64,000 nt of DNA from Halosimplex halophilum (lineage in GTDB: Archaea > Halobacteriota > Halobacteria > Halobacteriales > Haloarculaceae), in the NCBI RefSeq assembly GCF_004698125.1, contig NZ_SRHV01000005.1:682001-746000 (forward strand). The letters run 5' to 3'. A program made the position numbers and the translations under genes. Position 1 is the stretch's first letter, and every line of letters starts with the position of its first letter. The notes under the pieces are model-generated. The model was not told where the DNA came from and did not search any database. It saw only the letters and a program-made list of their open reading frames with translations. This document shows positions 1 through 19,270 of the stretch, piece after piece.

Positions 1-1357
1 CGAATTCAATTATGTTGACTACGGTAGGCACGATAATTTGGGGACCGTTGGTGGCTTTGAGACTCATCATATTTATCTGACCTGCCAAGAGTTAAAAGAG
101 AAATATCTTCCTATTGACGCCAATCCAAGAGAACCGAGTAATTCCCGCATCGTCAAATCAATGCAGGAAACCCTGAGAGACGACGCAGAGTCCTTCGTAA
201 AATGGAACAACGGAATTACCGTAGTTTGTGAAAACGTAAATAAAGGGTCTGGAACAGTTGAGTTAGAGTTTTCCGAAGAGGACGAAGGAATCTGCAATGG
301 GGGCCATACTTACTTCGCTATAGTCACTTCGAATCATGATGTAAGCAATTCAGGCGTTCTATTAGAAGTCATTGAGGTACCCCAGGACTTGGACAATAGA
401 GAGGAGGAGATCGTTGAAATTGCGAAAAAACGGAATAATATCAATAATTTAGATAACTACACTGTTGCGGACTTCTTGGATCTCTATGAGCCGTTCAAAC
501 AGCGAATGGACGACCCTGAGGTCGTATCCTGGCATGAAAATGATTCTGAAGCAAAATCATATGCAGTATCTGCTCCCGAGGTCATCCGGATGATGACTAC
601 GGTAAATCCAACTAGATATCGCCACGCAATTTTGTGTCCCGGTGGGTCATATCATAAGAGTGCGGCTACATCGAAAACTAGCCTCCATACAAGCTGGTTT
701 GAGGATGCCTTAGAAGCTAGAGATAATGACAACGAGGACCCAATGGCTTTCTTAGGGGTTCTTATCGATGATCTGTTTGAGATCCGGGACATGATTGCCT
801 ATTCGTTCAAGGAAGGAGACTATGACAATTCGTTCAGGAAGCGTTCTTTCTACCAGGATAATATTGGTGGGGAAGACGCAACTACCCGCGACCTTCATAT
901 GGGCGACTATGATGGCCTGACGGGGTATAAGATCAGGTCTACTCTGGAGGTGATGGTCTTGGGAATGTTCCGGTCGAACCTCTTCCAGAAATACGACGAA
1001 GATGGAAATGTGCGCTATGTTGGTTGGATGGTAGAACCCAAAACCCTCTGGGATGAGGAAAAAGAGCGTGTAGTAGATAATCTATCAACGTTTTATGATG
1101 ACGTCGGGAAAAGTTATCGTGATTTCATCAATAGTGAAGCGCCTTACAGGGAGGAACTGTACGAATTCGGAAGAAGTGCAAGCTGGCCGTTCCCCCCCGC
1201 TGAAATCCTTTACGACACTGAATCTGCGGATAAATATGTCTTCACCGAGGATACGGAAGATGCCACCCACTGGCTAGCAGATTCAGGGGAAGGGCTGATA
1301 TCAATCAGCGATAGAGAGCGTCCTGACGACGAACCCTTGTATAAAGTTTCCAATTAA
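1..1357 (+). CDS. AIPR-type abortive-infection protein, 5' end outside window
   Basis: The reading frame is open to the first base of the window (EFNYVDYG... precedes the TTG at 38), so the gene starts upstream and only 451 residues are visible. Numbering from the TTG at 38, there is an NNGI motif at about 57-60 and an NGGH motif at about 87-90. I associate this pair with the AIPR (abortive infection phage resistance) family, which normally reads NNGI...NGxQT. The remainder is acidic with no membrane segment. It ends one base before the ATG of an HNH nuclease gene, so the two are probably co-transcribed. Base composition is AT-rich like the rest of the island. A role in phage defence is inferred from family and neighbours; a DndB/ParB-like protein is the main alternative. 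Confidence 0.6.
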   Translation, partial: EFNYVDYGRHDNLGTVGGFETHHIYLTCQELKEKYLPIDANPREPSNSRIVKSMQETLRDDAESFVKWNNGITVVCENVNKGSGTVELEFSEEDEGICNGGHTYFAIVTSNHDVSNSGVLLEVIEVPQDLDNREEEIVEIAKKRNNINNLDNYTVADFLDLYEPFKQRMDDPEVVSWHENDSEAKSYAVSAPEVIRMMTTVNPTRYRHAILCPGGSYHKSAATSKTSLHTSWFEDALEARDNDNEDPMAFLGVLIDDLFEIRDMIAYSFKEGDYDNSFRKRSFYQDNIGGEDATTRDLHMGDYDGLTGYKIRSTLEVMVLGMFRSNLFQKYDEDGNVRYVGWMVEPKTLWDEEKERVVDNLSTFYDDVGKSYRDFINSEAPYREELYEFGRSASWPFPPAEILYDTESADKYVFTEDTEDATHWLADSGEGLISISDRERPDDEPLYKVSN

Positions 1358-1358
1358 A

Positions 1359-1700
1359 ATGCGCTGTGTAGTTTGCGGTGAGATGGAAGAGTTAGATGAT
1401 GCCCACGTAAAGGACAGAAGTGAATTTGCGCCCAGTGAGGATGACCGAACCCATAATATAATTTCTCTCTGTCCGACTCACCATAGGATGTTTGATAACC
1501 ACATCATCGGGATATGTCCTTCAAAAGAGGAGCTAATTGTTGAAGAGGCTGGTGGACTCTCGGTTATCGAGCCTAAGCTCTCTATTGGTCACATCAAAGA
1601 GGAATATGTTGAGTATCACAATTCACGATGTACACCGCGAATAAGGGCTGCCCTTGGTTTGATACCTGATCAAGAATATGCAAAGAAGTGTGGCCAGTAG
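1359..1700 (+). CDS. HNH endonuclease, small
   Basis: A 113-residue protein with a compact HNH fold. CxxC at C3/C6 and the C38-x2-HH cluster would hold the structural zinc. H16 and N33, followed by H41/H42, fit the His-Asn-His catalytic positions of the HNH family (DDAH ... HNIISLCPTHH). The ATG at 1359 lies one base after the stop of the AIPR-type gene, implying translational coupling. No DNA-specificity domain is visible, so target choice may depend on the partner. The family assignment is from motifs; the pairing as a restriction or abortive-infection module is inference. Confidence 0.8.
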   Translation: MRCVVCGEMEELDDAHVKDRSEFAPSEDDRTHNIISLCPTHHRMFDNHIIGICPSKEELIVEEAGGLSVIEPKLSIGHIKEEYVEYHNSRCTPRIRAALGLIPDQEYAKKCGQ

Positions 1701-2072: not shown

Positions 2073-4559
2073 ATGGCTGGAGAAAGTGATGTGCCTCTTT
2101 GTGGGAAGCGCATATTCCTATATCCCGGCGATCCGGATGGGACTGGAATCATTCAATACAATGCAGAGGACTACCGAGAAGAGTTCCAAGAAGTTGATTT
2201 CGTTGATAGCTCCCAATTCATTCGCTCAATAGGGCAGGACATTACCCTCCGGAATCAATCCCTCCTACGCCTCTCGGATAGTATTCAGTTTGAGGTGCCC
2301 GATTATCAAAGGAACTATAGCTGGGAGGAAGATCAACACGATGGCCTCTGGGAGACAGCTCGGAGTGTACTTTCTCTCCAAACAACTGCAACAAACACCC
2401 CCTCAGATACGTACTTTGGTACAGTCTATGTAGCAAAGTCGTCTAACCGCGATATTTATGAGATTATAGATGGTCAGCAACGGTTGGCGACCATAGCGAT
2501 TCTATTACGAAATATCGGAGTCGCTTTGGACGCAACAATTCCAGAACTGTCGGGGGAAGTGAGGTCCTATACCGAGCATATAAAAGAAGACTATATCGAC
2601 GAGCTACTCTATCGACGCCAAGGACCAAACGAGATCCCGTTCATCAGACTCAATAAACACGATAACGAGTTCTTCAGACTGCTCTTCCAAGACGACAGAG
2701 GCGTAGCTAAGGGCCTCAAACGGATGGAACAATATGATGGCCGCAAGCAAAACGCAATTCGACTACGCTCCCTCCTCAGCGAACTCAACGTTGATGAAGA
2801 AGTCTATGGACCAGATGGGTTAGGGTTTGATGAAGACGTTCTTGACTCATTCAGATATTTCGCCGAATCGCATCAGAAATTAGTCGAAGCTGATGAATTC
2901 TATTCGAGCGCAATCGACCAGTTCTTGAACAATAGTAGCTTCTCCGAACCGGAACACGAAGCCAGAGCCTTGGTTAATCTGACTCACTTCGTACTTCGCT
3001 CACTTCGCGTCTCTGAGTGTCTTTTCGAGACTGACGATCAAGAACTCCGTGTCGACGTCTTCCAGTCTCTGAATGACCGGGGTGTGGAGCTATCCAAGAT
3101 GGACAAGGTACGTGCTCGTATCGTGGGCCGTTTCCAAGGAGAATCTGATAGCGATAAGCAAGTTGGACGATGGGAATCAGTGGTGCAGGAATTCGGGGGC
3201 GACTCCGATGCTGTAGAAGACTTCTTAGCTCACTATCTCGCTGCGACAGAAAAAGAGTTTGAGACGGTTACTGATGCAAAAAATGAATTGCTCGAGGCCT
3301 TCCGATTGAAAGAATCCGGTCAGACAGAGATCCGATCTCGGCTGGCTAATGCAGGCGACGCGCGAGATTTCTTAGAGGAACTCGAAGAGTACGCATTTCG
3401 GTACCAAGAGCTCGCAAACGCCGACTTAGTTGAGGATGAGAAGCAACTGTCACATAAATACCGTGAGGAGTGTGAGGCGATTCTTAGTCGGCTCAACGGT
3501 CTAGGGACTACCCAGTGGCGTCCCTTCGTCATGTATGTCTATCAAAAGGTAACAGAGACACCTGGGAAGGGGGAATTCTTCCGTGACGTACTCAAAACGG
3601 TCGAAAATATCACCTTCCGCGTGGCCATCTCTCCCCACGTAGCAACCGTAGTTGATGACACTTATCCGAAGACCACTCAGACGTTCATTGAGTTAGAGCA
3701 GACTGGGAATGAGTTTGAGACAGAAAAAGTAGCTGAGGAGCTTATCGATAATGTCGATAGTAGTGCGAGAAATGTTTTCGGCGAGAATTTTGCGGATCAT
3801 CTCATCTCAAAAAGCAACTGGCAAAACAACCAGACAAAGCAACTATTCCTCAAAATTGCTGATGAGCAATATCGAGAACAAAATCAGTCTGGGATCACCA
3901 ACACTTGGCTCTCGCAAGATCCAAGTGAGGTCCATATAGAACACGTCCTCCCACGGAATTTCCTCCTTGAGGGAAAGAGCCAGCCCTACGCGTGGCTAGA
4001 ACACTTCTTCCAAGCGAACGGGGAGAACCGGATTGAAAACCGGATCGAGCAATTGCGCTCGCGGGAAGCACATCAGATTGAAGAAGACCACCCAGACTAC
4101 GACGGGGTAGAACAAATCGTTTCTCGTGTCAAGGAAGACTTTGTCCGAGATCTCGGAAACATGATGCTTCTTGACCAAGCCCTGAATCGATCTGTTCAGA
4201 ACCGGTTGTTTGCAGTAAAGATCAGGGAGTACCACCGAAACCACAAGAAGGATCTCGAGAATATCGCGAATCACTATTTCGGAGAGGCAGGACCACTCCC
4301 AAAAGATACGTTAGAAACAGTACTGACGCTCGACCTCCCCGATGACGAAACAGCAACATCGATAGACGCTATCGAAGAATTGAATTCTTGGTGGAACTAC
4401 CACCGCTCCATCGAACGAAAGGCCGATATCGTCGAAAACGTCCTTGATTCGTTGACATTCGATTCTAATGAAGACGAATTCGACTCCGTGAAAGGAGAGA
4501 TTCACCAGATGGTGAAAAACGATTACGAGACCCGATTCACGCTATTGGGCTCCGGATAG
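2073..4559 (+). CDS. DUF262/DUF1524 (GmrSD-like) modification-dependent nuclease
   Basis: An 828-residue protein. The DUF262 (GmrS-like) domain begins at PDYQRNYSW (76-84), with the DGQQR nucleotide-binding/hydrolysis motif at 133-137. A long helical middle follows. The DUF1524 (GmrD-like, His-Me finger) domain near residue 620 carries HIEHVLP (H621, H624), the HxxP-type nuclease core. Fused GmrSD proteins are type IV restriction enzymes that cut modified cytosine DNA; related DUF262 proteins sit in many defence islands. The N-terminal ~70 residues, with CGKRIFLYPGD, are an unrecognised addition. It converges on queC with 8 bases between the stops. Whether it reads deazaguanine DNA, protects against it, or is simply a neighbour is unknown. 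Confidence 0.8.
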   Translation: MAGESDVPLCGKRIFLYPGDPDGTGIIQYNAEDYREEFQEVDFVDSSQFIRSIGQDITLRNQSLLRLSDSIQFEVPDYQRNYSWEEDQHDGLWETARSVLSLQTTATNTPSDTYFGTVYVAKSSNRDIYEIIDGQQRLATIAILLRNIGVALDATIPELSGEVRSYTEHIKEDYIDELLYRRQGPNEIPFIRLNKHDNEFFRLLFQDDRGVAKGLKRMEQYDGRKQNAIRLRSLLSELNVDEEVYGPDGLGFDEDVLDSFRYFAESHQKLVEADEFYSSAIDQFLNNSSFSEPEHEARALVNLTHFVLRSLRVSECLFETDDQELRVDVFQSLNDRGVELSKMDKVRARIVGRFQGESDSDKQVGRWESVVQEFGGDSDAVEDFLAHYLAATEKEFETVTDAKNELLEAFRLKESGQTEIRSRLANAGDARDFLEELEEYAFRYQELANADLVEDEKQLSHKYREECEAILSRLNGLGTTQWRPFVMYVYQKVTETPGKGEFFRDVLKTVENITFRVAISPHVATVVDDTYPKTTQTFIELEQTGNEFETEKVAEELIDNVDSSARNVFGENFADHLISKSNWQNNQTKQLFLKIADEQYREQNQSGITNTWLSQDPSEVHIEHVLPRNFLLEGKSQPYAWLEHFFQANGENRIENRIEQLRSREAHQIEEDHPDYDGVEQIVSRVKEDFVRDLGNMMLLDQALNRSVQNRLFAVKIREYHRNHKKDLENIANHYFGEAGPLPKDTLETVLTLDLPDDETATSIDAIEELNSWWNYHRSIERKADIVENVLDSLTFDSNEDEFDSVKGEIHQMVKNDYETRFTLLGSG

Positions 4560-4567
4560 GGAGACTA

Positions 4568-5269
4568 CTACTCCTTCCCAGAGTACGAGGAAGACTCCTC
4601 ATAGTCAATTGGGTCTATCGCATCAGCTTCTTGGAAGGCTTTGAGTCGATATGCACAGGCATCACAAGTGCCACAAGCAGGTTCGTTTGAACGATAGCAG
4701 CTCCAGGTGAGATCATACGGTACGTCCAATTCTAACCCTCGCTCTGCAATTTCGGTTTTAGACCACTCCACAAACGGTGCTTTGAGGTCAATTGTGGTCT
4801 CCCCCTTGGTGCCGACGTTCATTACTTGTTGGAACGCCTCGAAGAACTCTGGTCGACAATCCGGATATCCAGAGAAATCCTCGCTATGGGCGCCGATGAA
4901 GACCGCCGACGCTCCGATAGTTTCTGCATATGAGGTGGCCATCGACAAGAGATTCGCATTTCGGAAGGGCACATATGAAGACGGGACTTCTTCGCTATCT
5001 AAATCCGCGTCTGCTACTTCCATCTCCTCATCAGTCAAGCTTGATCCGCCGATATCAGCAAGGTGGCCGGTGTCAATGTGCGTGAGATCTGGCGCGTCTA
5101 CATGGTCAGCCAGCTTCTTTGCACACTCGAATTCTTTCGACTCGGTCTCTTGCCCGTAGGAGGAATGGAAAAAGTACGGACTGTATCCGGAATCCATTGC
5201 CTCGAAAACCGCAGTAGCGCTATCCATTCCGCCCGATACAAGGATCACAGCGCGTTCAGTTCTGGTCAT
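4568..5269 (-). CDS. queC: 7-cyano-7-deazaguanine (preQ0) synthase QueC
   Basis: A 233-residue PP-loop ATP-pyrophosphatase. SGGMDS at 12-17 is the nucleotide-binding loop. C191, C199, C202 and C205 (WSC...CGTCDAC) form the family's C-terminal zinc site. QueC converts 7-carboxy-7-deazaguanine to preQ0 using ATP and ammonia. Haloarchaea need one copy for archaeosine in tRNA; this copy sits in an AT-rich island beside two TGT homologues, so it is probably a dedicated second copy supplying preQ0 for DNA. It lies downstream of queE with an 83-base gap. Length is normal and no key residue is missing. Confidence 0.93.
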   Translation of the reverse strand: MTRTERAVILVSGGMDSATAVFEAMDSGYSPYFFHSSYGQETESKEFECAKKLADHVDAPDLTHIDTGHLADIGGSSLTDEEMEVADADLDSEEVPSSYVPFRNANLLSMATSYAETIGASAVFIGAHSEDFSGYPDCRPEFFEAFQQVMNVGTKGETTIDLKAPFVEWSKTEIAERGLELDVPYDLTWSCYRSNEPACGTCDACAYRLKAFQEADAIDPIDYEESSSYSGKE

Positions 5270-5352
5270 GAGTTTCGATTTGTCTTAGTTCGGAGTGGCT
5301 TGTTCCCTAGCAAAGTCCACAAATATGGTAGCCTCGTGGATTCTTCTCTGAG

Positions 5353-6132
5353 TCATGTTCCCGGCGCATCCTCCCAGAGATCGACATGGAGGCGAGGGGT
5401 ATATCGGTACCCGTATTCCAGAGCCAACTCTGCTACTTGATTTCTGACCTCGTCGAGTTCTTCCCGCGTCGTACCTTGAGGCATCAGTAAAATCTCGTCA
5501 CTGTCGATGTCGGCTTGGGTTTCTCTGCGGACTCTGTCGACAAGACTCTGGATTTCAGGGAGGTCATCAGGGCCTGTGACCACAAACTTAAGTTGACTGT
5601 TATAGGTCTCGAGTAAATCCCCGAGGACCTCAATATCGAGCCTTCGTTGGTCATGTCGATCCTCCCAATCCCCATCTCCGGAGGGGTCCTTTTCGGCGGT
5701 TGGATTACTGCTTTCGAGCTTTGGGCTAATGCTTGCAAGGTCGATTGCTGTATCCCTGTAGACAGTCCCATTTGTCTCTACGGTTGTATGATATCCTTGC
5801 TCACTGAGCCGTTTGAGCAAGATCTCACAATCATCGTGAATTAGGGGTTCACCCCCAGTAACCACAACATGGGTGGCCTGTTCAAAGTCCTTGACTTCCG
5901 CGAGTATTTCGTCAAGACTCATCCAGGCATGAGTCGGCTCCCAAGACGTGTGGTAGGAATCACAGAACCAGCAACGAAGGTTGCATCCACTTGTCCGTAT
6001 GAATACTGTGGGTGTCCCAGCGAGCTCTCCCTCGCCTTGTAGCGAGTAGAACAATTCATTGATGGGTAGACTGGGGGCCTCTTCAGAGGAGCTCTGACTT
6101 TGAGAATCCTCGAATCCGGCATTGACTGGCAT
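5353..6132 (-). CDS. queE: 7-carboxy-7-deazaguanine synthase QueE (radical SAM)
   Basis: A 259-residue radical SAM enzyme with C50-x3-C54-x2-C57 (SGCNLRCWFC) for the 4Fe-4S cluster and TGGEPL for SAM binding. QueE rearranges 6-carboxytetrahydropterin to 7-carboxy-7-deazaguanine, the step before QueC. The start ATG overlaps the queD stop by one base (TGATG), so the genes are translationally coupled. The first ~22 residues are a polar tail not seen in the shortest family members. GTP cyclohydrolase, the first pathway enzyme, is not in the window and must come from elsewhere in the genome. Confidence 0.93.
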   Translation of the reverse strand: MPVNAGFEDSQSQSSSEEAPSLPINELFYSLQGEGELAGTPTVFIRTSGCNLRCWFCDSYHTSWEPTHAWMSLDEILAEVKDFEQATHVVVTGGEPLIHDDCEILLKRLSEQGYHTTVETNGTVYRDTAIDLASISPKLESSNPTAEKDPSGDGDWEDRHDQRRLDIEVLGDLLETYNSQLKFVVTGPDDLPEIQSLVDRVRRETQADIDSDEILLMPQGTTREELDEVRNQVAELALEYGYRYTPRLHVDLWEDAPGT

Positions 6133-6581
6133 CAGTATGTAGCGCAGAGTTCTCCGGTTTCACGGACTTCAACGCTGACTTCCGTGACTGTCTCCGGTAG
6201 TTGTGTTTGAATCCGCCTTTCTAAAACGGAAGCCATGACCTCTGCTGTTGGGGGGTAGTCCAGAACCACCACCGCTTCTGCATCACCACTTTGTTGGAAA
6301 GCCTCTATCAGAGGATCTCCTTCTTCTAACAGAAATCGGTGGTCCCACCGATCAACGATCGATGTGATTTCGCCCTTGTCGACAACCCAGCCCTCATCGG
6401 TTATTTCTCCGGTTACCTCAACGCTGATTTTGTAGTTGTGACCATGGGGTCGTGAACACTTCCCGTCGTGGTGCTGGATTCGATGGCCGCTGCTAATCCG
6501 AATTGGCCTGTCGCGACCTACTGAAAGGGTTCGTAGTTCAGATTCGAACATATCGTCCTCTGCTAGTGCTCTCTCAGCCAT
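6132..6581 (-). CDS. queD: 6-carboxytetrahydropterin synthase QueD
   Basis: A 149-residue PTPS-fold enzyme. H33, H46 and H48 are the zinc ligands and C42 the catalytic cysteine in CSRPHGH, the QueD-type C-x3-H-x-H arrangement. It makes 6-carboxytetrahydropterin from dihydroneopterin triphosphate. It is the first gene of the minus-strand queD-queE-queC run and is transcribed away from the DUF6884/TGT operon across a ~120-base divergent spacer. The ATG at residue 11 is an alternative start; the first ten residues add nothing recognisable. Confidence 0.92.
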   Translation of the reverse strand: MAERALAEDDMFESELRTLSVGRDRPIRISSGHRIQHHDGKCSRPHGHNYKISVEVTGEITDEGWVVDKGEITSIVDRWDHRFLLEEGDPLIEAFQQSGDAEAVVVLDYPPTAEVMASVLERRIQTQLPETVTEVSVEVRETGELCATY

Positions 6582-6702
6582 ATCACGGTATTATTCTGAG
6601 AATACTAAAGCATTCACTCTACGGTGATTTATCCGGTGGGGTGAGACAATTCTAACATCAAGGGGGAAATGTTGAAGACACGCCCGCGTGATCAAGCACA
6701 CC
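6582..6702. promoter_or_regulatory. Divergent promoter region, queD / DUF6884 operon
   Basis: The 121 bases between the queD start and the ATG at 6703 must carry promoters for both transcripts. The stretch is AT-rich near queD (6590-6635). No clear palindromic operator is visible. The shared spacer suggests precursor synthesis and DNA insertion are expressed together. Confidence 0.45.
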
Positions 6703-7161
6703 ATGACGACACTCTTAGTTCAATCGTGTTCTCAACAGAAGACTACAGCCAGCGGTAGAATACCGGCTTTTGAACGGTATGATGGGTACTTTTTCAGAAT
6801 AATTAAGAATACGATTAACGGAGGTATTGAGAAAGCCCCGTTTGACATATGCATTCTTTCTGCGGAACATGGACTGCTAAATCCGACGGACTATATTTCG
6901 AATTATGACCGAGAGATGGATGAGCGTCGTGCTGCTGAGCTGAGAGACTCTGTCGTAACTCAGCTTAGGGAGAAAATTCAATCTTCAGGCTATGATCCAG
7001 TAGTTGTGAACCTCGGACAAGTGTACTACCAAGCGATTCAGGGTTTCGAGTCAGGGCTTGGTGTGACAGTGAAGACAATAGAAGGGGACGGGATAGGAGA
7101 AAAAGGGCAGGAACTGAAACAGCATCTCGAATCTTTGCTTTCAGAGACAGCAGAACACTGA
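6703..7161 (+). CDS. DUF6884-like protein, candidate deazaguanine-modifying partner of the TGT
   Basis: 152 residues from the ATG at 6703; a GTG at 6688 would add five. SCSQQK (8-13) near the N-terminus, LSAEHGLL (52-59), a following YDREM (68-72) and GQVYY (105-109) match the DUF6884 pattern as I know it. The layout Cys-Ser-x2-Lys, then a strand ending in a Gly-Leu turn, then a late Gly...Tyr segment resembles the ArcS C-terminal domain at the end of the TGT fusion at 10092-12080. The two may therefore be related. It ends 6 bases before the TGT gene at 7168. The biochemical role is unknown; acting on inserted preQ0 is an inference from position. Confidence 0.65.
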   Translation: MTTLLVQSCSQQKTTASGRIPAFERYDGYFFRIIKNTINGGIEKAPFDICILSAEHGLLNPTDYISNYDREMDERRAAELRDSVVTQLREKIQSSGYDPVVVNLGQVYYQAIQGFESGLGVTVKTIEGDGIGEKGQELKQHLESLLSETAEH

Positions 7162-7167
7162 ATACAG

Positions 7168-8427
7168 ATGACTACACCAGCAAATATCCCACAAAGCGGA
7201 GCCACCTCATATAGCTCATTTTCTGTGACAGCAACTACGGGAAAAGCTCGAGCAGCGAAATTAGAAATTGATGAGACGACTCTCAATACCCCAAATCTGC
7301 TTCCCGTAATTAATTTCTATGCCGGGGGGATGGAGCGGAGCCTCTATGGAGGTGGTATCTTTCGGACCATGAAAGAATTCATGACAGGTCAGGGACCCCT
7401 CTCGGTAGAAGCTTGCGAGGAATATTTTGACGCAGTCATGATGTCCGTTGCCTCCCTCACTGACTATGGTATCAACAAGGAGCGGTATGAAGCATATCTT
7501 GATACGCCAATTAAACAGCGTGAGATATTTTCAGAATTCGATGGCGCGCTGTTTGTTGATTCGGGCGGCTACAAGCTATTGGATGAAGATAGCCTGGATG
7601 GTAGCGATTTTGAGGTGAATCTGACGCAACAGACCATCTTTGATATACAACGGCGGTTAGGTGGAGACATCCTCGTCAATCTCGACCGCCCTATTTCGCC
7701 CGACGATGGCTATGAAACACGTGTGAAAAAGGCAGAACAAACTGCGGAGAATATGGCGGAATTCCTGCGCTATTCGGCTGATTATAACGGAGCGAGGTTC
7801 CTCACAATTCACGGCTATAATTATTCGATGATGGATACATTCCTCGAAAAGGTCACTGACGTACTCGGGCCACATCTCATCCGGAGTTGCTTTGACGGGA
7901 TCGCTCTTGGGAGTCTAGTTCCGAAGAAAGACAACAAAGGAGACCTAATATCGGCTGTAAGCGATTGCAAAGAAGTCCTCACTGATTACAGATTTGACGA
8001 GCTACCGCTTCATGTGCTCGGCATCTCTAGTAGTGCTATTCCCTTGTTGGTTGCAATGGGAGTCGACTCATTTGATTCATCATCGTATCTCCATGCAGCA
8101 ATAAATGGAAAGTACCACACAGATCTTACCAAAACTGTATCTGTTGACGACGCTCCCATTGAAGACTGCCCATGCCCCGTCTGTTCGAATCCGAAGTTGA
8201 GTGCTTGGATGCGAGGCGACGCCGAATACCAGAAAGATAAGCTCGGGGCGGTTTCAATGCATAACCTCATAATTCAGAAGGATTCAATCAGAGAAATGCG
8301 AGAGATAATTCGTCAAGACGACCGGGACGCACTAATAGAGTACATCGATTCAACAATCGGGCAGAGAAAATCCATGCGACAGTTTGCCCATCGTGTAATC
8401 AATGAATCCCTCGGAGGCTATTTCTAA
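7168..8427 (+). CDS. DNA-type tRNA-guanine transglycosylase homologue (DpdA-like)
   Basis: A 419-residue TGT-fold protein. It keeps the general acid/base aspartate in DSGGYK (D131), the base-recognition aspartate in NLDRP (D173), GSLVP (249-253), the HVLG strand and the nucleophile in SFDS (D303). The zinc site is C334-x-C336-x2-C339-x25-H365, the same spacing as bacterial TGT. No PUA or other tRNA-binding domain is visible. TGT enzymes exchange guanine for a 7-deazaguanine; DpdA homologues do this in DNA. The island location and three adjacent preQ0 genes favour DNA as substrate. The stop overlaps the next ATG (TAATG). Confidence 0.82.
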   Translation: MTTPANIPQSGATSYSSFSVTATTGKARAAKLEIDETTLNTPNLLPVINFYAGGMERSLYGGGIFRTMKEFMTGQGPLSVEACEEYFDAVMMSVASLTDYGINKERYEAYLDTPIKQREIFSEFDGALFVDSGGYKLLDEDSLDGSDFEVNLTQQTIFDIQRRLGGDILVNLDRPISPDDGYETRVKKAEQTAENMAEFLRYSADYNGARFLTIHGYNYSMMDTFLEKVTDVLGPHLIRSCFDGIALGSLVPKKDNKGDLISAVSDCKEVLTDYRFDELPLHVLGISSSAIPLLVAMGVDSFDSSSYLHAAINGKYHTDLTKTVSVDDAPIEDCPCPVCSNPKLSAWMRGDAEYQKDKLGAVSMHNLIIQKDSIREMREIIRQDDRDALIEYIDSTIGQRKSMRQFAHRVINESLGGYF

Positions 8428-9971
8428 TGAAACAAGAACCAAAGGTTAACGAAGTAAACGAGTTCCTCGAAACAGCAAGCGATTTCGAAAGTCCATTGGA
8501 AGTGATTCGAGAGTCCCTCTCAAATAGCTATGACGCTGGTGCAACTGAGGTGGAAATTGAGATTAGGGACCAGCCCAATGGGTCAAATATTTTGATCAAA
8601 GACGACGGGGAAGGGATGGATAAAGATCGGTTAGAGACGTTTTTTGACCTCGGAAATTCCCAAAAGACAGACTCAATCGGATACAAAGGGCATGGGACGA
8701 AGATCTTCTACAAGAGCGACCACATAGAAGTAACAACCAAAAAAGACGGTAAAGCCCTTCAAGCGATGATGGATCGCCCTTGGGAGAAGTTGAACGACCG
8801 GGTTTTACCGGAATACGAGGTTACAGAAGTGGGTGCTGACGAGTTTGAGTCTGGAACGAGAATACACGTCGTCGGTTTCAAATCTGGTCAGGATTTCAAC
8901 CCGAGATCATTGACTTACAACAAGATCCATCACTACCTGAAGTGGAAGACAATCGCCGGGTCGACAGCACACTATTTTGAAGACGATACTCGTGAGATGG
9001 ATATCGAGATTCAGCTCGGCGATGAGATTGATGACTCGATGGAGAGGCTACAAACAAACAACCGGCTAGAGTTCCCTGACGAGCGGCTCAACCCCGGCGA
9101 TGGTGAATTCCCTGCAGAGCGGATGTGTAAAGTCTACCCACCGCAAGAGCTCACCATTTCCTATGATGGTGGCGAGACGACTGCTCAAGTTGTCGGAATG
9201 GTCGGGGGGAAAGCCGCCAGAAATGAACTGCCAACGTTTGGAAAGCATTCGGCACAATTCGGTGTCTGGCTAGCTAAGGATTATATCAAAGTTGAGCGCG
9301 CAAATCAAGCAATCTCCCACGACAACGAATTCCTCCATTTCTTCTTCATCGTCAACTGCCAAGACTTAGAACTATCCGCCAACCGCGGCCAGATTCGGAA
9401 TAAATCCAGTAAGGTGTATCGAGCACTCATTTCGAGGCTGGACCGCTTCATGTCGAAGGTCGCCGGCGATCCCTGGTTTGATGACTATTTGGAGCAGCGC
9501 AGAGTAGCCGAACTCAAGAGAAAAGCAAAGTCACAACGATCTTCAGTGGAAGACAGGATGGAAGCACTCTCTGAGCAGACTACGTTTTCTCCCTCTAATT
9601 CATCAGAGGTACTGCTCGCCATAGAGCGACTCGCCGATGAGGGTGAGAACAATATTCAGGTAGAAGATTTCGAGCCAGAGACCGACATCAATACTATCGT
9701 ACGCAATGGGAAGGGTCTACAAACAGCGTCGGTTCTCCCAACTCTAACGACTCACTTTGAAGAAGGGAAGCAGTTGGAGGGTGTTGATAAGCTTATTTGC
9801 TGGGAACTTGGGGACCTAGATCAACTCCGAGAGCTTGAACGGAACGGGTACAGAGGCGGGACCATCATATTTGATTTCGATGAAGAGAAAGTCATATACA
9901 AAAACGGTATGACCGAGAAAATCGACATCATGATATTAGATCCCGAAAATAAGGCGCAGACTCTGCGCTGA
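8427..9971 (+). CDS. GHKL-type (Hsp90/MORC-like) ATPase
   Basis: 514 residues. The Bergerat ATP fold is clear: N-box with E29 and N33 (RESLSNSYDAGAT), the G1 motif DDGEGMD (D60, G61, G63) and the G2 motif GYKGHGT (85-91). A middle domain with a conserved-looking SANRGQIR segment resembles the transducer part of Hsp90/MutL-type enzymes, followed by a helical region and an unrecognised C-terminal segment. The gene overlaps the TGT stop by one base, so the ATPase is made in step with the transglycosylase. It may be an ATP-driven clamp or switch linked to modification or restriction. The substrate cannot be read from the sequence. Confidence 0.8.
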   Translation: MKQEPKVNEVNEFLETASDFESPLEVIRESLSNSYDAGATEVEIEIRDQPNGSNILIKDDGEGMDKDRLETFFDLGNSQKTDSIGYKGHGTKIFYKSDHIEVTTKKDGKALQAMMDRPWEKLNDRVLPEYEVTEVGADEFESGTRIHVVGFKSGQDFNPRSLTYNKIHHYLKWKTIAGSTAHYFEDDTREMDIEIQLGDEIDDSMERLQTNNRLEFPDERLNPGDGEFPAERMCKVYPPQELTISYDGGETTAQVVGMVGGKAARNELPTFGKHSAQFGVWLAKDYIKVERANQAISHDNEFLHFFFIVNCQDLELSANRGQIRNKSSKVYRALISRLDRFMSKVAGDPWFDDYLEQRRVAELKRKAKSQRSSVEDRMEALSEQTTFSPSNSSEVLLAIERLADEGENNIQVEDFEPETDINTIVRNGKGLQTASVLPTLTTHFEEGKQLEGVDKLICWELGDLDQLRELERNGYRGGTIIFDFDEEKVIYKNGMTEKIDIMILDPENKAQTLR

Positions 9972-10091
9972 ATCTCCTTTCAGCGGACGAAACGAATGAC
10001 GGTTCTTGGAATTCAACTCTACCAACATAAATAGCGTGTCAGGACCCGAGGCGAAGACGTTTAATCTCTACTGTTGTTCTATAGCACGTAG

Positions 10092-12080
10092 ATGGAGAGA
10101 GGATTTAGGTCACAACGTGAGGCCGACGTTGGAGCGGCCCGTCTCGGCCATCTTTATACGCCGGAAGCGCCCGACCAAGGCCCAGTTGAAACTCCGGCCT
10201 TCTTTCCGGTTCTGAACCTGATTGGAGGGCCAACACCCGTCTCTGGGGGAATCTGGAGTCGACTTCGAAATCGTCTGTTTGGCGATCCAAAGTTCCAGGG
10301 AGCTATGTTCCAAGCGATGAGCTTTCTGGATTTCAACCTCTCTGCAGAGAAGTTAGAGAAATGGCGAACCGAGGCAGAGGGGCTGCACGACTGGCACACT
10401 GGCCACGAATCGCCAAAGGACAATCCTGACCCACCTGCATTCACTCAGCCGCTGTTCGTTGACTCGGGCGGTTTCAAACTGATGAATTCCCGGACGTTTG
10501 GCTCTCCTCCCGAAGAGGGTGGGGAGGAAAACGAGTGGGGAATCTACACCAATCCCGAGTCAATCCTTTCGCTTCAGTACGACTACGGTGCAGACCTACT
10601 TGCAACGCTTGATTATCCAATCCCGCCGGATCTCAACGAGGCTGAAAAACACCAACGGGTCGAAAATAGTATCGACAGTGCCGTCGAGTGCATTCGCCTC
10701 CTTCACGAAGACGAACGATACGAAGACTGGGAACCAACGGTCTACGCAGCAATCCACGGTCATGATCACGAAGAGATCGCGTACTACGTCAGTACACTCT
10801 TCCAGCGAACGGAGTATCCGGAAGCGATTGACGGGCTCGCAGTAGGCTCACTTGTTCCACTCCGGTCTGGCAATATCGGAACTCTCGTCGACATTGTACA
10901 GGGTGCAACGGATGCTATCCCTCCTGCCCGGCGTGACGAGATCGCGCTACACGTATTCGGCATCGGGGGCGGTCTCACCCCATTGCTTGCAACCCTTGGT
11001 GTGGATAGCTATGACTCATCGACGTACGTGCAGGCTGCCCAGCACCAGAAATTCATTCACCCCGAGAGTGGTGTGAAGATTCCACTCGAAGAGATGTCTG
11101 AAAGCGAGTGGCAATGCGACTGTCCAGCCTGCGAAGAGTTAGAGGATGTCGGTCTCGAGACGATGCGGTACGTGTTCGATGCAGATCAATCATACAAGCC
11201 AGTGGAAGTCGAGCGAGACGGAACAACTATATCGTATATGAAAAGCGACTTCTATGCTCTCATCGCCCACCACAACTTCCACGTATTCCAGGACGAAGTG
11301 ATAGAGGTCCGTGAAGCGATCAAGAACGACGACTTAGAATCATTGTTGGTCACCACTGCTATGGACAATCTTGATGTGGCGACTGGGCTCGCTCGGGCTG
11401 CAAGTCGCTGGCCCGAGCTCCGCCCATTGGTCCCAGATGATGTCGACATTGAGGCAAATTCACCGGACAATGAGTCGCTTACATATCAGACGAAATTCAA
11501 CGATGACGGCGATATTGTGGTCCCCTCTAAGGATTCCACTTCTCTCAAGCACGAACCGGATGACTTTGACGTTCGTAACCTCTCGTTCGAACCCGACTCG
11601 GAGTCGTCCGTTTGTTTGATCATTCCCTGCAGCCAAACCAAGCCCTATAGCAACTCTAGAACACATCAAGTAGTCGAGAGACATCTGACCGAGGCAGGTC
11701 TCTGGGACCAGATCCATAAAGTCACTATATCTGGACTCTATGGTCCAGTTCCCGAGGAGTACGAGACCTCTGATGCAGTACTTTCGTACGACTACGTACT
11801 GAATGCAGCTGACCAATCCCAGATCGATGTAGTGGAAGAACGGCTTGTAGACTTCCTGTTGACTCACGCCTCGAAATACGACTACGTAATTGGCTATGCG
11901 ACGAGCAAAATCTATCGGCAAGTGATATCCGAAGCCTTTGAGGAAGCCGATATAGGTGTAGTACTCCCCCGAGATCCACCCGCTCGGCGACTTACTGAAC
12001 ACTTTAGAACAGAACATCTTGATGAACTTCGTCGAGAAATCGCGAATTCGGTTGAGATCTCGGTACCCTCTGAGAGATAA
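10092..12080 (+). CDS. TGT (DpdA-like) fused to an archaeosine-synthase (ArcS) domain
   Basis: 662 residues. The N-terminal TGT domain keeps D124 (DSGGFK), D174 (ATLDYP), GSLVP (252-256), the nucleophile D308 (SYDS) and zinc ligands C342, C344 and C347. H393, H394 or H397 would be the fourth ligand, after an insertion of ~20 residues compared with the TGT at 7168. After a linker (~450-500) comes a DUF5591/ArcS-type domain whose P512-C513-x3-K517-P518-Y519-x2-S522-x2-H525 is the full ArcS signature. ArcS uses this domain to act on preQ0 in tRNA. Here it is joined to a TGT with its catalytic residues intact and no PUA domain is seen, which suggests insertion and elaboration of preQ0 in DNA by one protein. 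It begins 120 bases after the ATPase gene. Confidence 0.85.
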   Translation: MERGFRSQREADVGAARLGHLYTPEAPDQGPVETPAFFPVLNLIGGPTPVSGGIWSRLRNRLFGDPKFQGAMFQAMSFLDFNLSAEKLEKWRTEAEGLHDWHTGHESPKDNPDPPAFTQPLFVDSGGFKLMNSRTFGSPPEEGGEENEWGIYTNPESILSLQYDYGADLLATLDYPIPPDLNEAEKHQRVENSIDSAVECIRLLHEDERYEDWEPTVYAAIHGHDHEEIAYYVSTLFQRTEYPEAIDGLAVGSLVPLRSGNIGTLVDIVQGATDAIPPARRDEIALHVFGIGGGLTPLLATLGVDSYDSSTYVQAAQHQKFIHPESGVKIPLEEMSESEWQCDCPACEELEDVGLETMRYVFDADQSYKPVEVERDGTTISYMKSDFYALIAHHNFHVFQDEVIEVREAIKNDDLESLLVTTAMDNLDVATGLARAASRWPELRPLVPDDVDIEANSPDNESLTYQTKFNDDGDIVVPSKDSTSLKHEPDDFDVRNLSFEPDSESSVCLIIPCSQTKPYSNSRTHQVVERHLTEAGLWDQIHKVTISGLYGPVPEEYETSDAVLSYDYVLNAADQSQIDVVEERLVDFLLTHASKYDYVIGYATSKIYRQVISEAFEEADIGVVLPRDPPARRLTEHFRTEHLDELRREIANSVEISVPSER

Positions 12081-12590: not shown

Positions 12591-14216
12591 ATGGGGAATT
12601 GGGGACTAACCCGCCGAAGATTTGTACAGGTATCTAGCGGGGTTGTCCTGGGGAATCAATTACTGCCATCTCTGCCTTCTGAAGAGACAGCAACCGAGTC
12701 GTGGCCTGAATTCGGCTATGATGCTGCGAATACAGGTGCGCCAGATACGACTGGCCCGTCAGAAGAAGTTGAGGAATATTGGTCTGAATCTGTGGGGAGT
12801 CAAATATACGACTCTCCTGTTGTTGAAGATGGGACGGTATATATCGGGAAAGGGTCTCGATTGCAAGCATACGACACAGAGACAGGGGAACAACTTTGGT
12901 CTGTAAATAAGATGAGTGGAGGGGTGACTGCTCCTGCTGTAAAAGATGGAACTGCATTTTTTGCGAATGGGCACGGTGCAACAGTATATGCAATACGGGG
13001 AGGCTCGGAACAGTGGTCTGTTGAATTAGGGGATGGGCGTGCATTTTCTGCGCCAGCAATAGTTGGAGAAACCGTGTATACTGGAGTGAATCGATTCGGT
13101 GAGGATGGGGAAGATCTCGGAACGATATATGCTTTAGATGTGTCAGATGGTTCTGAGAGATGGACGTTTGATACAGAGGGTTATATTAGCAGGCAGTATA
13201 GTCGTGCCTCAGCGGCAGTGGCAGATGGTACAGTGTATATTGGGACTCAAGATGGGAATTCTGGTTGGTTATATGCGATTGATGCTTCGGATGGGACTGA
13301 AGAGTGGGCTTTAGAAACGGAGCAGACAAATCCATCTTCTCCAGCTGTGGTGGATGGGACAGTCTACATTGGAACAAGAGCGTATGATGCATCTGATGGA
13401 ACAAAGCAATGGGAGTATGATGCTGGTGTAAATTCGTCCTCTCCTGCTGTTGCGGATGGGACGGTGTATGTCGGGAGTGTGGATAATAATGTGTATGCAT
13501 TAAATGCATCTGATGGCGCTCAGCAGTGGCGATTTGAGACTGGTGGTGAGATAGAATCCTCTCCAGTTGTTGTTGACGGGACTGTATACGTTGGAAGTAA
13601 TGATCGATCTCTCTATGCTCTTGATGCAGGTGATGGGTCGGAACTGTGGAGCATTGAGTTAAGAGATGAGGTGGGGTCTCCAGCGGTTCTTAACAATCGG
13701 ATTTATGTGGGAACTATTGATTGGGGACAAATTTACGCTTTAGCTCCGCCAAATTTGACGCCCACACCGACGGACCCACCAACTAGAAGTCCAACACCGA
13801 CAGATACGCCGACGGACACGCTGACCCGGAGTCCAACACCGACAGATACGCCGACGGACACACCGGCTGAAACAGTAACAAGCCCAGCTCGTAGCACTAC
13901 AACAAGCGTGCCGGCAGACTCATCTGCTCCATCAAGGTCTCCGATAACAACAGAAGCCTCTACAGGCCCAACGAGCGTGCCTACATCTGCCCCGCGATCA
14001 AATCAGAATGGCACTTCTCAAACTGGGAGTGACAATTCCACATCAGAGACTTCCACAACCACGCCGCCAGAACCACCAGACAACTGGATAGCTGTTTTAA
14101 TGGGAATTATCGCTCCTATTCTCACTACTCAAGCGATCGTCGGACTAGGAGTAGTCTTAGTGGTCGTTTCGATTGTATTGCTTTGGGAGAGTACAGTTGA
14201 CGAGGCAGACGAATGA
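12591..14216 (+). CDS. Secreted PQQ-like beta-propeller protein, Tat signal and C-terminal membrane anchor
   Basis: 541 residues. The N-terminus has a twin-arginine signal (TRRRFVQ, 8-14). Residues ~40-390 hold at least seven propeller blades of the PQQ/PQQ-like type, with recurrent VADGTVYVGS and YALDASDG motifs. A Thr/Pro/Ser-rich linker (~390-490, likely glycosylated) leads to one C-terminal membrane helix and a short acidic tail. The product is therefore exported folded and anchored at the cell surface, as either a binding or scaffold propeller. The ATGA overlap with the next gene shows coupling to a small membrane protein. Function is unknown; the AT-rich codon use marks it as island DNA. 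Confidence 0.85.
   Translation: MGNWGLTRRRFVQVSSGVVLGNQLLPSLPSEETATESWPEFGYDAANTGAPDTTGPSEEVEEYWSESVGSQIYDSPVVEDGTVYIGKGSRLQAYDTETGEQLWSVNKMSGGVTAPAVKDGTAFFANGHGATVYAIRGGSEQWSVELGDGRAFSAPAIVGETVYTGVNRFGEDGEDLGTIYALDVSDGSERWTFDTEGYISRQYSRASAAVADGTVYIGTQDGNSGWLYAIDASDGTEEWALETEQTNPSSPAVVDGTVYIGTRAYDASDGTKQWEYDAGVNSSSPAVADGTVYVGSVDNNVYALNASDGAQQWRFETGGEIESSPVVVDGTVYVGSNDRSLYALDAGDGSELWSIELRDEVGSPAVLNNRIYVGTIDWGQIYALAPPNLTPTPTDPPTRSPTPTDTPTDTLTRSPTPTDTPTDTPAETVTSPARSTTTSVPADSSAPSRSPITTEASTGPTSVPTSAPRSNQNGTSQTGSDNSTSETSTTTPPEPPDNWIAVLMGIIAPILTTQAIVGLGVVLVVVSIVLLWESTVDEADE
13788..13861 (+). repeat. 32-bp direct repeat coding for the Thr/Pro linker
   Basis: The same 32 bases occur at 13788-13819 and 13830-13861 (period 42), encoding SPTPTDTPTDT. 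This is an internal protein repeat in the stalk of the propeller protein, not a CRISPR. Confidence 0.9.
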
Positions 14217-14479
14217 TGGATATCGAACTAGTTCAGAGTCTTTGGCCCGCTACATTCGTTGTAGGGTTCGTAGTTCTCTATTTGTTTCTCATCACTCGTC
14301 GCAGGTATACGCGACCGAAGGCGTTTCTTGGTATCATTTTTGCAGTATCACTATTGTCGGTCATTTACACCATTCCTGCTGTTCGAACTGGGATTCGAAT
14401 GGGATTAACTCTTGTCGGGTTTGCAATTCCACCAAGTCTCGGCATAATCTCAATCCGTTATGTGGTGGCTGAGACATAG
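14213..14479 (+). CDS. Small membrane protein, three helices
   Basis: 88 residues starting in the ATGATG that overlaps the propeller stop. Three hydrophobic segments (about 10-28, 38-56 and 62-85) fill nearly the whole protein. No known family recognised. Tight overlap with the propeller gene and the downstream membrane gene suggests the three form one complex. Confidence 0.7.
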   Translation: MMDIELVQSLWPATFVVGFVVLYLFLITRRRYTRPKAFLGIIFAVSLLSVIYTIPAVRTGIRMGLTLVGFAIPPSLGIISIRYVVAET

Positions 14480-14480
14480 T

Positions 14481-15293
14481 ATGTACCTTGTCTTGCAACT
14501 CGCGGCATGGGTAGATGTTATCCCAGGATGGGTGCCTCCAGTGACTATTGCAGTCGGGTTTTGTCTCATTTCTCTTGCGATGGGAAAGCAATATTTTGAG
14601 GGACTGTTTGACGGTTTGAGTACTCAGGCGCCTGTGTTCACGATGTTTTTTGTTACTTGTCTCACCGTCAGTATTGGTGGCGCAACGTACGTTACAATTC
14701 AGCAGGAGGAGTTTCTGTTAATGTTCGTGTTTTTCTTGTTTGTGAGTGGGCGGATGGTTCAGGGGGCAATCGCAGCAAGGATAATTCAGAAGGTTCTGGA
14801 TTTTTTCATTCCAATATTCTCCTCGGGGGGTGGTGATACTGATCTGTCATTGTCTGCTTTAATTGCTGTTCTTAAGCGAGCACAAAGCTATATTTGGTCA
14901 AAACTTCGAACTCGATTGATTATCTTTGTCGTGACGGGGTTAATTTCGTTTCAAACGGCGTTAAGTATCGCCGCAGTGTACGTTATTGGGAGTGGGGAAA
15001 CAGCAGATGCTGTCCGCCGGTTCTGGGCAGGGGTTTTCTTTTTGCTTATTTCAGGGATGGTGTTTGACTTCAGGTACTTTGCCCACAAGATCTCGTGGAC
15101 TGCAACGATTGGTCTGATCCTTACCGTCACAGGGGCGTTCCTGTACAATCCACTTGAGTTCTCTGCATATACGGGTCTTATTGCCCCGTATCTTGAAAAC
15201 CCGCTTCCAGATTGGTTACGATGGCCATTGGGGATCATTGGATTTATCGCGGGTGTCTTTATGTGGGCCGGATTTTATCTAAAGGAGGGCTGA
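14481..15293 (+). CDS. Multi-pass membrane protein of the propeller operon
   Basis: 270 residues from the ATG at 14481, which directly follows the preceding stop. An in-frame ATG at 14460 would add seven residues and overlap the upstream gene. I count about seven to eight hydrophobic segments, with a cytosolic-looking loop around residues 110-150 (GGGDTDLSLSALIAVLKRAQ). No family recognised. Third gene of the coupled set beginning at 12591; transport or surface signalling are possible but unsupported. Confidence 0.7.
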   Translation: MYLVLQLAAWVDVIPGWVPPVTIAVGFCLISLAMGKQYFEGLFDGLSTQAPVFTMFFVTCLTVSIGGATYVTIQQEEFLLMFVFFLFVSGRMVQGAIAARIIQKVLDFFIPIFSSGGGDTDLSLSALIAVLKRAQSYIWSKLRTRLIIFVVTGLISFQTALSIAAVYVIGSGETADAVRRFWAGVFFLLISGMVFDFRYFAHKISWTATIGLILTVTGAFLYNPLEFSAYTGLIAPYLENPLPDWLRWPLGIIGFIAGVFMWAGFYLKEG

Positions 15294-16391: not shown

Positions 16392-16600
16392 GAAGAATTC
16401 TATGACAGCTTCTAAGTCTAATATATAAAGAAAATCAAGGAGCCAGTGATGACGTGGTTCTGCTCCGACACTGGTTCCTACGGACCGCATGACAGCAAGT
16501 GGAGGAACTCGGTTCGAGTCGAACTTCAGCTCCGAGGGGGCGGTAGATTGATGTGGATCGTACTGCCGTCCTGCATATCCGCACTGTGTAGAATGTACAC
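16392..16600. other. Junction between transposase remnant and tRNA-Arg
   Basis: About 209 bases, AT-rich at first (TAATATATAAAG near 16419), then mixed. No gene seen. This is the edge of the accessory island next to the 3' end of tRNA-Arg. Confidence 0.5.
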
Positions 16601-16672
16601 GAGCCCGCGGGGATTTGAACCCCGGACAACTTGGTCCGGAACCAAGCACTCTGTCCACTGAGCTACGGGCCC
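16601..16672 (-). tRNA. tRNA-Arg (anticodon CCG)
   Basis: 72 bases fold as a full cloverleaf: acceptor GGGCCCG/CGGGCTC with one G-U pair, D arm GCTC/GAGT, anticodon stem CTTGG/CCAAG around TTCCGGA, and T arm CGGGG/CCCCG around TTCAAAT. The loop gives anticodon CCG, reading CGG (Arg). No intron and no encoded CCA. The 3' end faces the AT-rich island, making it the likely integration site. Confidence 0.95.
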
Positions 16673-18244: not shown

Positions 18245-18314
18245 GATCAAAACCGGCGTTTCGGCCCCGAACCGGACGGTCGGCGCCGAGTTGTAGCCGT
18301 GTCACCCACTCTCG

Positions 18315-19226: not shown

Positions 19227-19270
19227 ACTCGGGAGTCTCCGGGCGCGCAAGTAGGGGTTGCGGTTCGACC

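Follow-up and report, generated by a model that had tools for sequence, protein, structure and literature searches.

Do haloarchaea possess a counterpart of the tRNA archaeosine pathway that works on DNA? The question is raised by a locus in a stretch of 64,000 nucleotides from the genome of Halosimplex halophilum (hereafter the window; G000:C3:682001-746000 in a host genome of 4.47 Mb), where genes for the synthesis of 7-cyano-7-deazaguanine (preQ0) adjoin an operon encoding a DUF6884 protein, two homologues of tRNA-guanine transglycosylase (TGT1 and TGT2) and a GHKL ATPase. Bacteria, phages and archaeal viruses are known to mark DNA with 7-deazaguanines. Our literature search found no paper on such a system in the genome of an archaeal cell, nor on the present gene set. 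In our view the locus is probably a modification-restriction system that resembles Dpd but is of a separate haloarchaeal type; it would be built from archaeosine-type enzymes and act on DNA. An earlier reading of the window (the original prediction) had proposed preQ0 genes beside a divergent DUF6884/TGT/GHKL/TGT operon, and all of these genes were found where it had placed them, with strong family matches (Table 1).

A conserved core module

The island that holds the locus carries AIPR, HNH and GmrSD-type genes, then queC-queE-queD on the reverse strand (4568-6581) and, divergent from these, DUF6884-TGT1-GHKL ATPase-TGT2 on the forward strand (6703-12080). DUF6884, TGT1, GHKL and TGT2 form a real module. 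Among the 146 genomes of the family, 10 have both TGT1 (counted at E<=1e-45) and the GHKL ATPase, and none has one without the other; TGT2 is found in all 10 and also in G136, a metagenome-assembled genome (MAG) of 77% completeness. In one genome (G046) the operon and the TGT2 gene are some 180 kb apart and co-occur all the same. Over the whole class, 39 of 391 genomes carry TGT2, and these represent 26 of 86 genera. The original prediction had suggested a search for the same gene order in other haloarchaeal genomes, and the order does recur: DUF6884, TGT1 and GHKL stand together in 28 of the 31 loci examined, 25 of these with TGT2 in the stretch, queC is present in 13, and DUF6884 belongs to every core operon. 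Between the window and its nearest relative (G094, of the same genus), amino-acid identity is 56-73%, with 0.17-0.29 nonsynonymous and 0.76-0.87 synonymous differences per site (pN and pS), the silent sites being saturated. These changes are mainly synonymous, which points to purifying selection on all seven genes. The plasmid copies of the transglycosylases are annotated just as 'tRNA-guanine transglycosylase'.

TGT2 joins a transglycosylase to ArcS

The ArcS domain of TGT2 is the feature that narrows the predicted product most. DUF5591, the catalytic core of ArcS, is joined here to an intact TGT active site in one protein; the original prediction was right about the layout of two TGT homologues and a GHKL ATPase and overlooked this domain. 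The ArcS signature, which Phillips is said to have described in 2010, is PCx3KPYx2Sx2H. TGT2 carries it as PCSQTKPYSNSRTH, a signature of this type is found in the TGT2 of 29 of the 29 full-length loci scanned, the window included (with Q in place of the last H in three), and the host's own ArcS carries it as PCSARKPYSDSQSH. Since the signature is kept across TGT2 proteins that are just 42-72% identical to one another, it can be argued that ArcS chemistry is retained. In the host ArcS, PUA and TGT_C2 domains accompany a TGT domain that is only partial, whereas a domain search of TGT2 returned neither PUA nor TGT_C2.

Both TGT homologues keep the catalytic aspartates and the zinc ligands, as had been claimed: D131, D303, C334/C336/C339 and H365 are invariant when TGT1 is aligned with 10 relatives, and D124, D305, D308, the zinc cysteines and H394 when TGT2 is aligned with 11. 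These sites align with those of Pyrococcus ArcTGT (1iq8), a feature expected of TgtA. The original prediction had also set a structural search that might place the transglycosylases with tRNA-acting ArcTGT. The predicted model of TGT2 (mean pLDDT, the predicted local distance difference test, of 75, with several weak stretches) does match ArcTGT best, over residues 1-449 (Z 34.4, root-mean-square deviation (rmsd) 2.8 over 342 residues); this match covers the catalytic domain only (chain residues 6-373 of 577), and bacterial TGT follows at Z of about 31-32. Such a match of a predicted model would speak to the fold rather than the substrate and, as there was no DpdA structure among the hits, it cannot decide between DNA and tRNA.

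Variants of TGT2 occur elsewhere. On a low-G+C (guanine plus cytosine) contig of an archaeal MAG (L089:165-5775), a DpdJ-like helicase gene is accompanied by a TGT2-like gene of 386 aa and then a separate open reading frame (ORF) with TLTKPYSKSRTH; outside haloarchaea, therefore, a gene split or a frameshift may separate the TGT part from the ArcS part. The downstream ORFs look, by eye, Cas7/Cas5-like. A plasmid of Haladaptatus sp. YSMS36 (L101:16679-18700) has, next to a single core operon, two genes of the TGT2 type that fall into different subclades.

TGT1, the GHKL ATPase and the DUF6884 protein

The curated models were missed by wide margins, namely TgtA (TIGR00432; 112.2 bits for TGT1 and 86.7 bits for TGT2 against a cut-off of 350), DpdA (NF041059; 36.5 bits for TGT1 against 200, no match for TGT2) and ArcS (NF040592; 87 bits for TGT2 against 440), and for this reason we file TGT1 and TGT2 in none of these families. 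The DpdA model of PADLOC matched TGT1 only (3.1e-8). TGT1 forms its own clade (support 100/100); in a reduced tree TGT1, TGT2, ArcTGT and TGT350 (the TGT of the type-B loci below) are separate, and TGT1 joins TGT2 at 93/86, a node that carries a long-branch warning. A full TGT tree with the DpdA of phages and Deinococcus had very long branches, and their placement was not used. The original prediction observed that neither TGT homologue has a PUA domain, and the domain search indeed found no match to the C-terminal C2 and PUA domains in TGT1 or TGT2. As an argument for DNA enzymes this does not serve: the host ArcTGT gives no match to these domains either, and therefore the lack of PUA does not discriminate from tRNA enzymes.

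The ATP site of the GHKL ATPase is intact, with E29, N33, D36 and GYKGHGTK invariant among relatives. The DUF6884 protein probably starts at the ATG at 6703, which fits its homologues, rather than at the listed GTG at 6688, and its C14, S15 and K18 are invariant among relatives. By sequence it gave no significant match in the PDB, a weak match to DpdC in PADLOC (2e-4) and a match to PF03883 just below the cut-off (2.7e-6). Its predicted model (pLDDT 89) matches AF0587 best (Z 11.0), followed by YaaA of E. coli at Z 10.6 (148 residues superposed with an rmsd of 3.2), and the next fold reaches 7.8; AF0587 is also matched by the TGT2 profile, through the ArcS domain. DpdC belongs to the DUF328 family, that of E. 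coli YaaA (PMC12839542), and Pfam curators likewise relate DUF6884 to YaaA (PMC11701544).

Restriction-type neighbours

The original prediction saw none of the usual dpd restriction genes, which is true of the window (no DpdD-K) and does not extend to its relatives. DpdJ-like helicases stand beside the core in L041 (3.4e-53), in L045 (1.8e-46) and on a Natrinema plasmid (2.1e-52), and relatives also adjoin a DpdK-like phospholipase-D nuclease (1e-9) and a weaker DpdH-like ATPase (1.2e-6). The order on the Natrinema plasmid, TGT2 - helicase - two small genes - ATPase - 234 aa - DpdJ-like - DpdK-like, is close to that of Deinococcus taeanensis, dpdH - 234 aa DpdI-like - DEAD helicase. Furthermore, a D. 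taeanensis plasmid (L118:31206-33176) encodes a DUF6884-TGT fusion (N-terminal match to DpdC, 3e-7; C-terminal match to DpdA, 1.3e-12) which adjoins annotated dpdE, dpdF and dpdH. Other loci have an MkoA-like SF1 helicase with HerA, HNH-repeat proteins or GmrSD-type nucleases, so that the nuclease and helicase neighbours are exchangeable.

As an argument this lack is weak, and restriction-type genes do adjoin the module in the window: a GmrSD-type gene stops 8 bp short of queC, and further out come an HNH and an AIPR gene. Both domains of the GmrSD-type protein exceed their cut-offs (GmrSD_N 104.9 bits against 33.2, GmrSD_C 38.6 bits against 23). GmrSD stands beside the core in the window and in four other loci; with three such genes in the host, one would fall within 10 kb by chance in about 1.3% of genomes, and the probability of at least five in 29 is 4e-5.

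A protein of about 157 aa with the motif ELEWRRADPADNAAK recurs near the core (L041:13901-14398 and six other loci); it is unannotated and perhaps has a small nuclease fold. A recurrent cluster of 156-166 aa was considered as a phospholipase-D nuclease and rejected, as it proved to be another protein.

Source of preQ0

Adjacent queD, queE and queC genes give the locus the preQ0 genes that mark Dpd systems. The original prediction placed them in an AT-rich island outside the tRNA-modification setting. The island is real (below), but queDEC is the sole copy of the genome rather than a dedicated extra, the only queC of the host being that of the island. Because there is no other copy, the island queDEC must also feed tRNA archaeosine. 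Its G+C content is about 50%, against 66-72% for chromosomal copies in the same genus. Four same-genus genomes without such a locus have a chromosomal queDEC, and the flanks of a relative's chromosomal queDEC map to two places in the host genome, where queDEC is absent. In the locus-bearing genomes of the genus (G000, G094, G089) the island queDEC is the sole copy (3/3, against 0/4 without the locus; p 0.03). The island copy has thus probably replaced the chromosomal queDEC, with tRNA archaeosine now depending on it. Within the family as a whole, 28 genomes have a TGT2 or type-B TGT locus, and 15 of them carry at least two copies of queC; of the 118 genomes that lack such a locus, one does (Fisher p about 5e-12). 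Two genomes among the 15 are almost identical, and the count excludes a split gene in G004. Several genomes keep a second, separate queC besides that of the locus.

Genomic setting

From position 1 to about 16 kb of the window, G+C content is 0.45-0.54; beyond, it is about 0.70, the level of a haloarchaeal chromosome, and the change falls just after a tRNA-Arg gene. Leftward, low G+C extends to about C3:667000 and takes in two integrase-family genes. The island looks mobile. No repeat of the tRNA-Arg 3' end of at least 16 bp that could serve as an att site was found within 84 kb, and integration at this tRNA is therefore unproven. A scan for bacterial-type promoters gave no signal above chance level.

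Table 1. Features of the locus and its surroundings in window coordinates.
Feature	Position	Strand	Evidence or remark
AIPR-family protein, neighbour	38..1357	+	AIPR 3.2e-17; weak AbiU 4.1e-6
HNH endonuclease, neighbour	1359..1700	+	HNH_2 3.6e-9
GmrSD-type (DUF262-DUF1524) nuclease, candidate restriction partner	2073..4559	+	GmrSD_N 7.9e-30; GmrSD_C 1.2e-9; HEC-06 1.3e-45
queC, 7-cyano-7-deazaguanine synthase	4568..5269	-	QueC 2.4e-72; TIGR00364 above cut-off
queE	5353..6132	-	Radical_SAM 5.8e-20; TIGR04349 QueE 4.5e-31, below its cut-off
queD, 6-carboxytetrahydropterin synthase	6132..6581	-	PTPS 1.1e-22; TIGR03367 1.1e-22 (80.2 bits, cut-off 89.25)
DUF6884 protein (YaaA/DUF328-like fold; candidate DpdC-like nitrile-converting enzyme)	6703..7161	+	DUF6884 5e-14
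TGT1, transglycosylase, candidate enzyme for preQ0 insertion into DNA	7168..8427	+	TGT 5e-29
GHKL ATPase (MutL/MORC-like N-terminal ATPase)	8427..9971	+	HATPase_c_3 4.1e-17
TGT2-ArcS	10092..12080	+	TGT domain, about residues 1-430 (5.7e-23); DUF5591/ArcS catalytic domain, about 499-624 (5.6e-16)
ArcS signature PCSQTKPYSNSRTH	11625..11666	+	TGT2 residues 512-525
tRNA-Arg(ccg), right border of the AT-rich island	16600..16672	-	ARAGORN and Rfam; G+C change

The two integrase-family ORFs left of the window (11361-14034 in L057:8193-19853) have HNH/TPR proteins at 8193-10451 and 18639-19853 and a uracil-DNA glycosylase (UDG)-like protein at 17552-18481 around them. At the right end of the island (window 12591-15293), a PQQ-type beta-propeller protein with Thr/Pro-rich repeats stands with a membrane-type protein.

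Comparison with known systems

The locus probably works like a Dpd system. Bacterial Dpd systems (DpdA-DpdK) likewise have a TGT homologue, preQ0 genes and an ATPase; the DUF6884 protein would be the DpdC-like member of the YaaA superfamily, and the DpdJ-, DpdK- and weaker DpdH-like genes of the haloarchaeal relatives add to the likeness. In contrast, there are two TGTs here, one of them fused to an ArcS domain, TGT1 falls far under the DpdA cut-off, a GHKL ATPase takes the place of the ParB-like DpdB, and the window has a GmrSD-type nuclease instead of DpdD-K. The tRNA archaeosine pathway (ArcTGT, ArcS, RaSEA) is similar in that a TGT inserts preQ0 and a DUF5591 domain with the ArcS signature converts it; unlike in that pathway, the protein that carries this domain here has a full TGT active site and no PUA or TGT_C2 domain, and the genes sit in an accessory island. 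A separate and complete tRNA set of the host, with ArcTGT, ArcS and RaSEA, lies on the same contig, about 90-105 kb away (RaSEA at C3:797719).

2'-Deoxyarchaeosine (dG+) or its relatives occur in the DNA of phage and halovirus pathways, for example phage 9g (DpdA with Gat-QueC), nt-1 (DpdA2 with ArcS) and HVTV-1, and a host DpdA was raised as a mere possibility for the HVTV-1 modification in the same 2019 phage study (PMC6884629). These pathways share preQ0 genes and a TGT homologue with the locus, and nt-1 an ArcS homologue also. In contrast, they are viral and use separate proteins, and viral relatives of the module were not found: there were none of TGT1, TGT2 or GHKL in IMG/VR and none of TGT1 or TGT2 among 50,697 phage records, on which ground a viral origin was rejected. 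A query with the host ArcS gave one doubtful Sulfolobus virus match only.

BREX-related capture (BRC) loci with a TGT and a GNAT protein were described in 2026 from bacteria and archaea (PMC12839542). They too are defence loci that recruit a TGT homologue for DNA marking; however, they are defined by PglZ, DUF6079, a STAND NTPase, DUF4007 and HerA, none of which was matched among ten window proteins, and the paper makes no mention of GHKL, DUF6884 or ArcS (PMC12839542). A HerA gene does stand beside one relative (L040).

A further set of haloarchaeal loci, here called type B (L049-L056, L066, L103; 17 family genomes), resembles the module in having two TGT-type proteins, a DUF6884 domain, an ATPase and preQ0 genes. 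It differs in its TGT family (TGT350, about 344 aa), in a BrxC/D-like ATPase instead of GHKL, in having no ArcS domain, and in a DUF6884 domain that is fused to or adjoins a larger TGT-like protein; a protein of about 300 aa is also present. queDEC is usual in these loci, once with folE, and they possibly represent another DNA 7-deazaguanine system. In G086 (L049:8218-15889) a type-B-like TGT accompanies a 563 aa TGT-DUF6884 fusion, and its queDEC is 26-33% identical to the haloarchaeal ones, which suggests another source.

Proposed model

We propose that QueD, QueE and QueC would supply preQ0 and that TGT1 may exchange target guanines in DNA for it. TGT2-ArcS would then act on the same DNA, its TGT domain binding the site and perhaps also exchanging the base, and its ArcS domain coupling the nitrile to an amine (by analogy with ArcS, lysine); this step would make the exchange irreversible. 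The ArcS of T. kodakarensis attaches lysine to preQ0 not just in tRNA but also in fragments and in the 5'-nucleotide itself, and does not depend on tRNA shape; it is active only together with RaSEA, and the addition of lysine prevents reversal (PMC11298593). A RaSEA gene is present in the host, so the base could be dG+ or dPreQ0-lysine, and host RaSEA may finish the conversion to dG+. The DUF6884 protein would be the DpdC-like partner and may make the amide (2'-deoxy-7-amido-7-deazaguanosine, dADG) instead or in addition, so that the product that follows preQ0 in DNA might be dG+, the preQ0-lysine intermediate or dADG. The GHKL ATPase probably fills the role of DpdB in loading or opening DNA. 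The mark would label self DNA, and a separate, exchangeable module would cut according to modification state; in this host the GmrSD-type nuclease next to queC is the likeliest cutting partner, and the HNH and AIPR proteins may take part. Our most specific proposal is tentative, and we hold it with somewhat less than even confidence: that 2'-deoxyarchaeosine or deoxy-preQ0-lysine serves archaeal cells as a mark on their own DNA, made by a two-TGT machine in which a DNA-acting TGT is fused to an ArcS domain, and read by interchangeable restriction modules (GmrSD, DpdHJK or helicase-nuclease).

The broader claim of the original prediction, that of a separate archaeal type of locus for 7-deazaguanine in DNA, has good contextual support from the strict co-occurrence of the core, the dpd-type neighbours, the Deinococcus fusion and the link to extra queC. 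The DNA target and the base produced, with the order of steps and the polarity of restriction, are what we infer. Several observations weigh against a Dpd-like system. TGT1 scores better with the archaeal tRNA TGT model than with DpdA, both scores being far under their cut-offs, and neither DpdB nor DpdD-K was found among ten window proteins. The ArcS of T. kodakarensis needs RaSEA in complex, yet the locus has no RaSEA gene, and two nitrile-acting domains (DUF6884 and DUF5591) exceed the needs of one product. The adjacency of GmrSD could equally come from the general clustering of defence genes, which may also account in part for nuclease neighbours that vary among loci, and the neighbour classes were chosen after inspection of the data.

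Alternative explanations

The same system might end in dADG or plain dPreQ0, made by TGT1 with the DpdC-like DUF6884 protein, if the ArcS domain of TGT2 just binds the modified base or has lost its chemistry. Both bases are products of bacterial dpd systems (PMC12839542), and the DUF6884 protein is DpdC/YaaA-like in sequence and fold, present in every core operon and fused to a TGT in a bacterial dpd cluster; an ArcS signature that is invariant or nearly so across such diverged TGT2 proteins nevertheless makes this outcome rather unlikely. A different target is envisaged if TGT1 and TGT2 are paralogues of ArcTGT and ArcS in a second pathway for tRNA or another RNA. This would suit the ArcTGT-like fold of TGT2, the ArcTGT-family hidden Markov models that outscore those of DpdA and an island queDEC that, as the sole source of preQ0, must serve tRNA. 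However, the host retains its own ArcTGT, ArcS and RaSEA, TGT2 is without the PUA and C2 domains of the host ArcS, and the module is patchy (about 10% of the class) and sits on islands and plasmids beside dpd-type helicases and nucleases; we regard a tRNA role as distinctly improbable.

A phage-like purpose is conceivable, in which the modification merely shields a mobile element from host restriction and is not part of the cell's own restriction-modification defence. The 7-deazaguanines of phages and haloviruses are anti-restriction marks (PMC6884629, PMC8651126), and the island has two integrase-like genes and a tRNA border; since no relatives of the module were found in IMG/VR or among the 50,697 phage records, and its recurrent neighbours are restriction-type helicases and nucleases rather than virion genes, such shielding seems improbable. 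That queDEC is an ordinary host tRNA cluster which adjoins the TGT operon by chance would agree with its single copy in the host and with the one chromosomal queDEC of locus-free genomes in the genus, but we find it hardly credible, given queC in 13 of 31 core loci across genera, the second, separate copies in several genomes, the low G+C of the island genes and the relative's flanks that map elsewhere in the host without queDEC. We thus retain a Dpd-like modification-restriction system as our preferred explanation.

Implications

Should this explanation be correct, archaea would gain their own type of modification-restriction, and the 'tRNA-guanine transglycosylase' and extra preQ0 genes scattered over haloarchaeal islands and megaplasmids would be explained. 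Archaeosine chemistry of the tRNA type would be new in the DNA of an archaeal cell, and a lysine-bearing base of this kind would be a new DNA modification. The uncharacterised DUF6884 family would be tied to DpdC-type chemistry, and enzymes of tRNA archaeosine synthesis would have been turned to DNA. Furthermore, in some strains an accessory island would have taken over the supply of preQ0 for tRNA.

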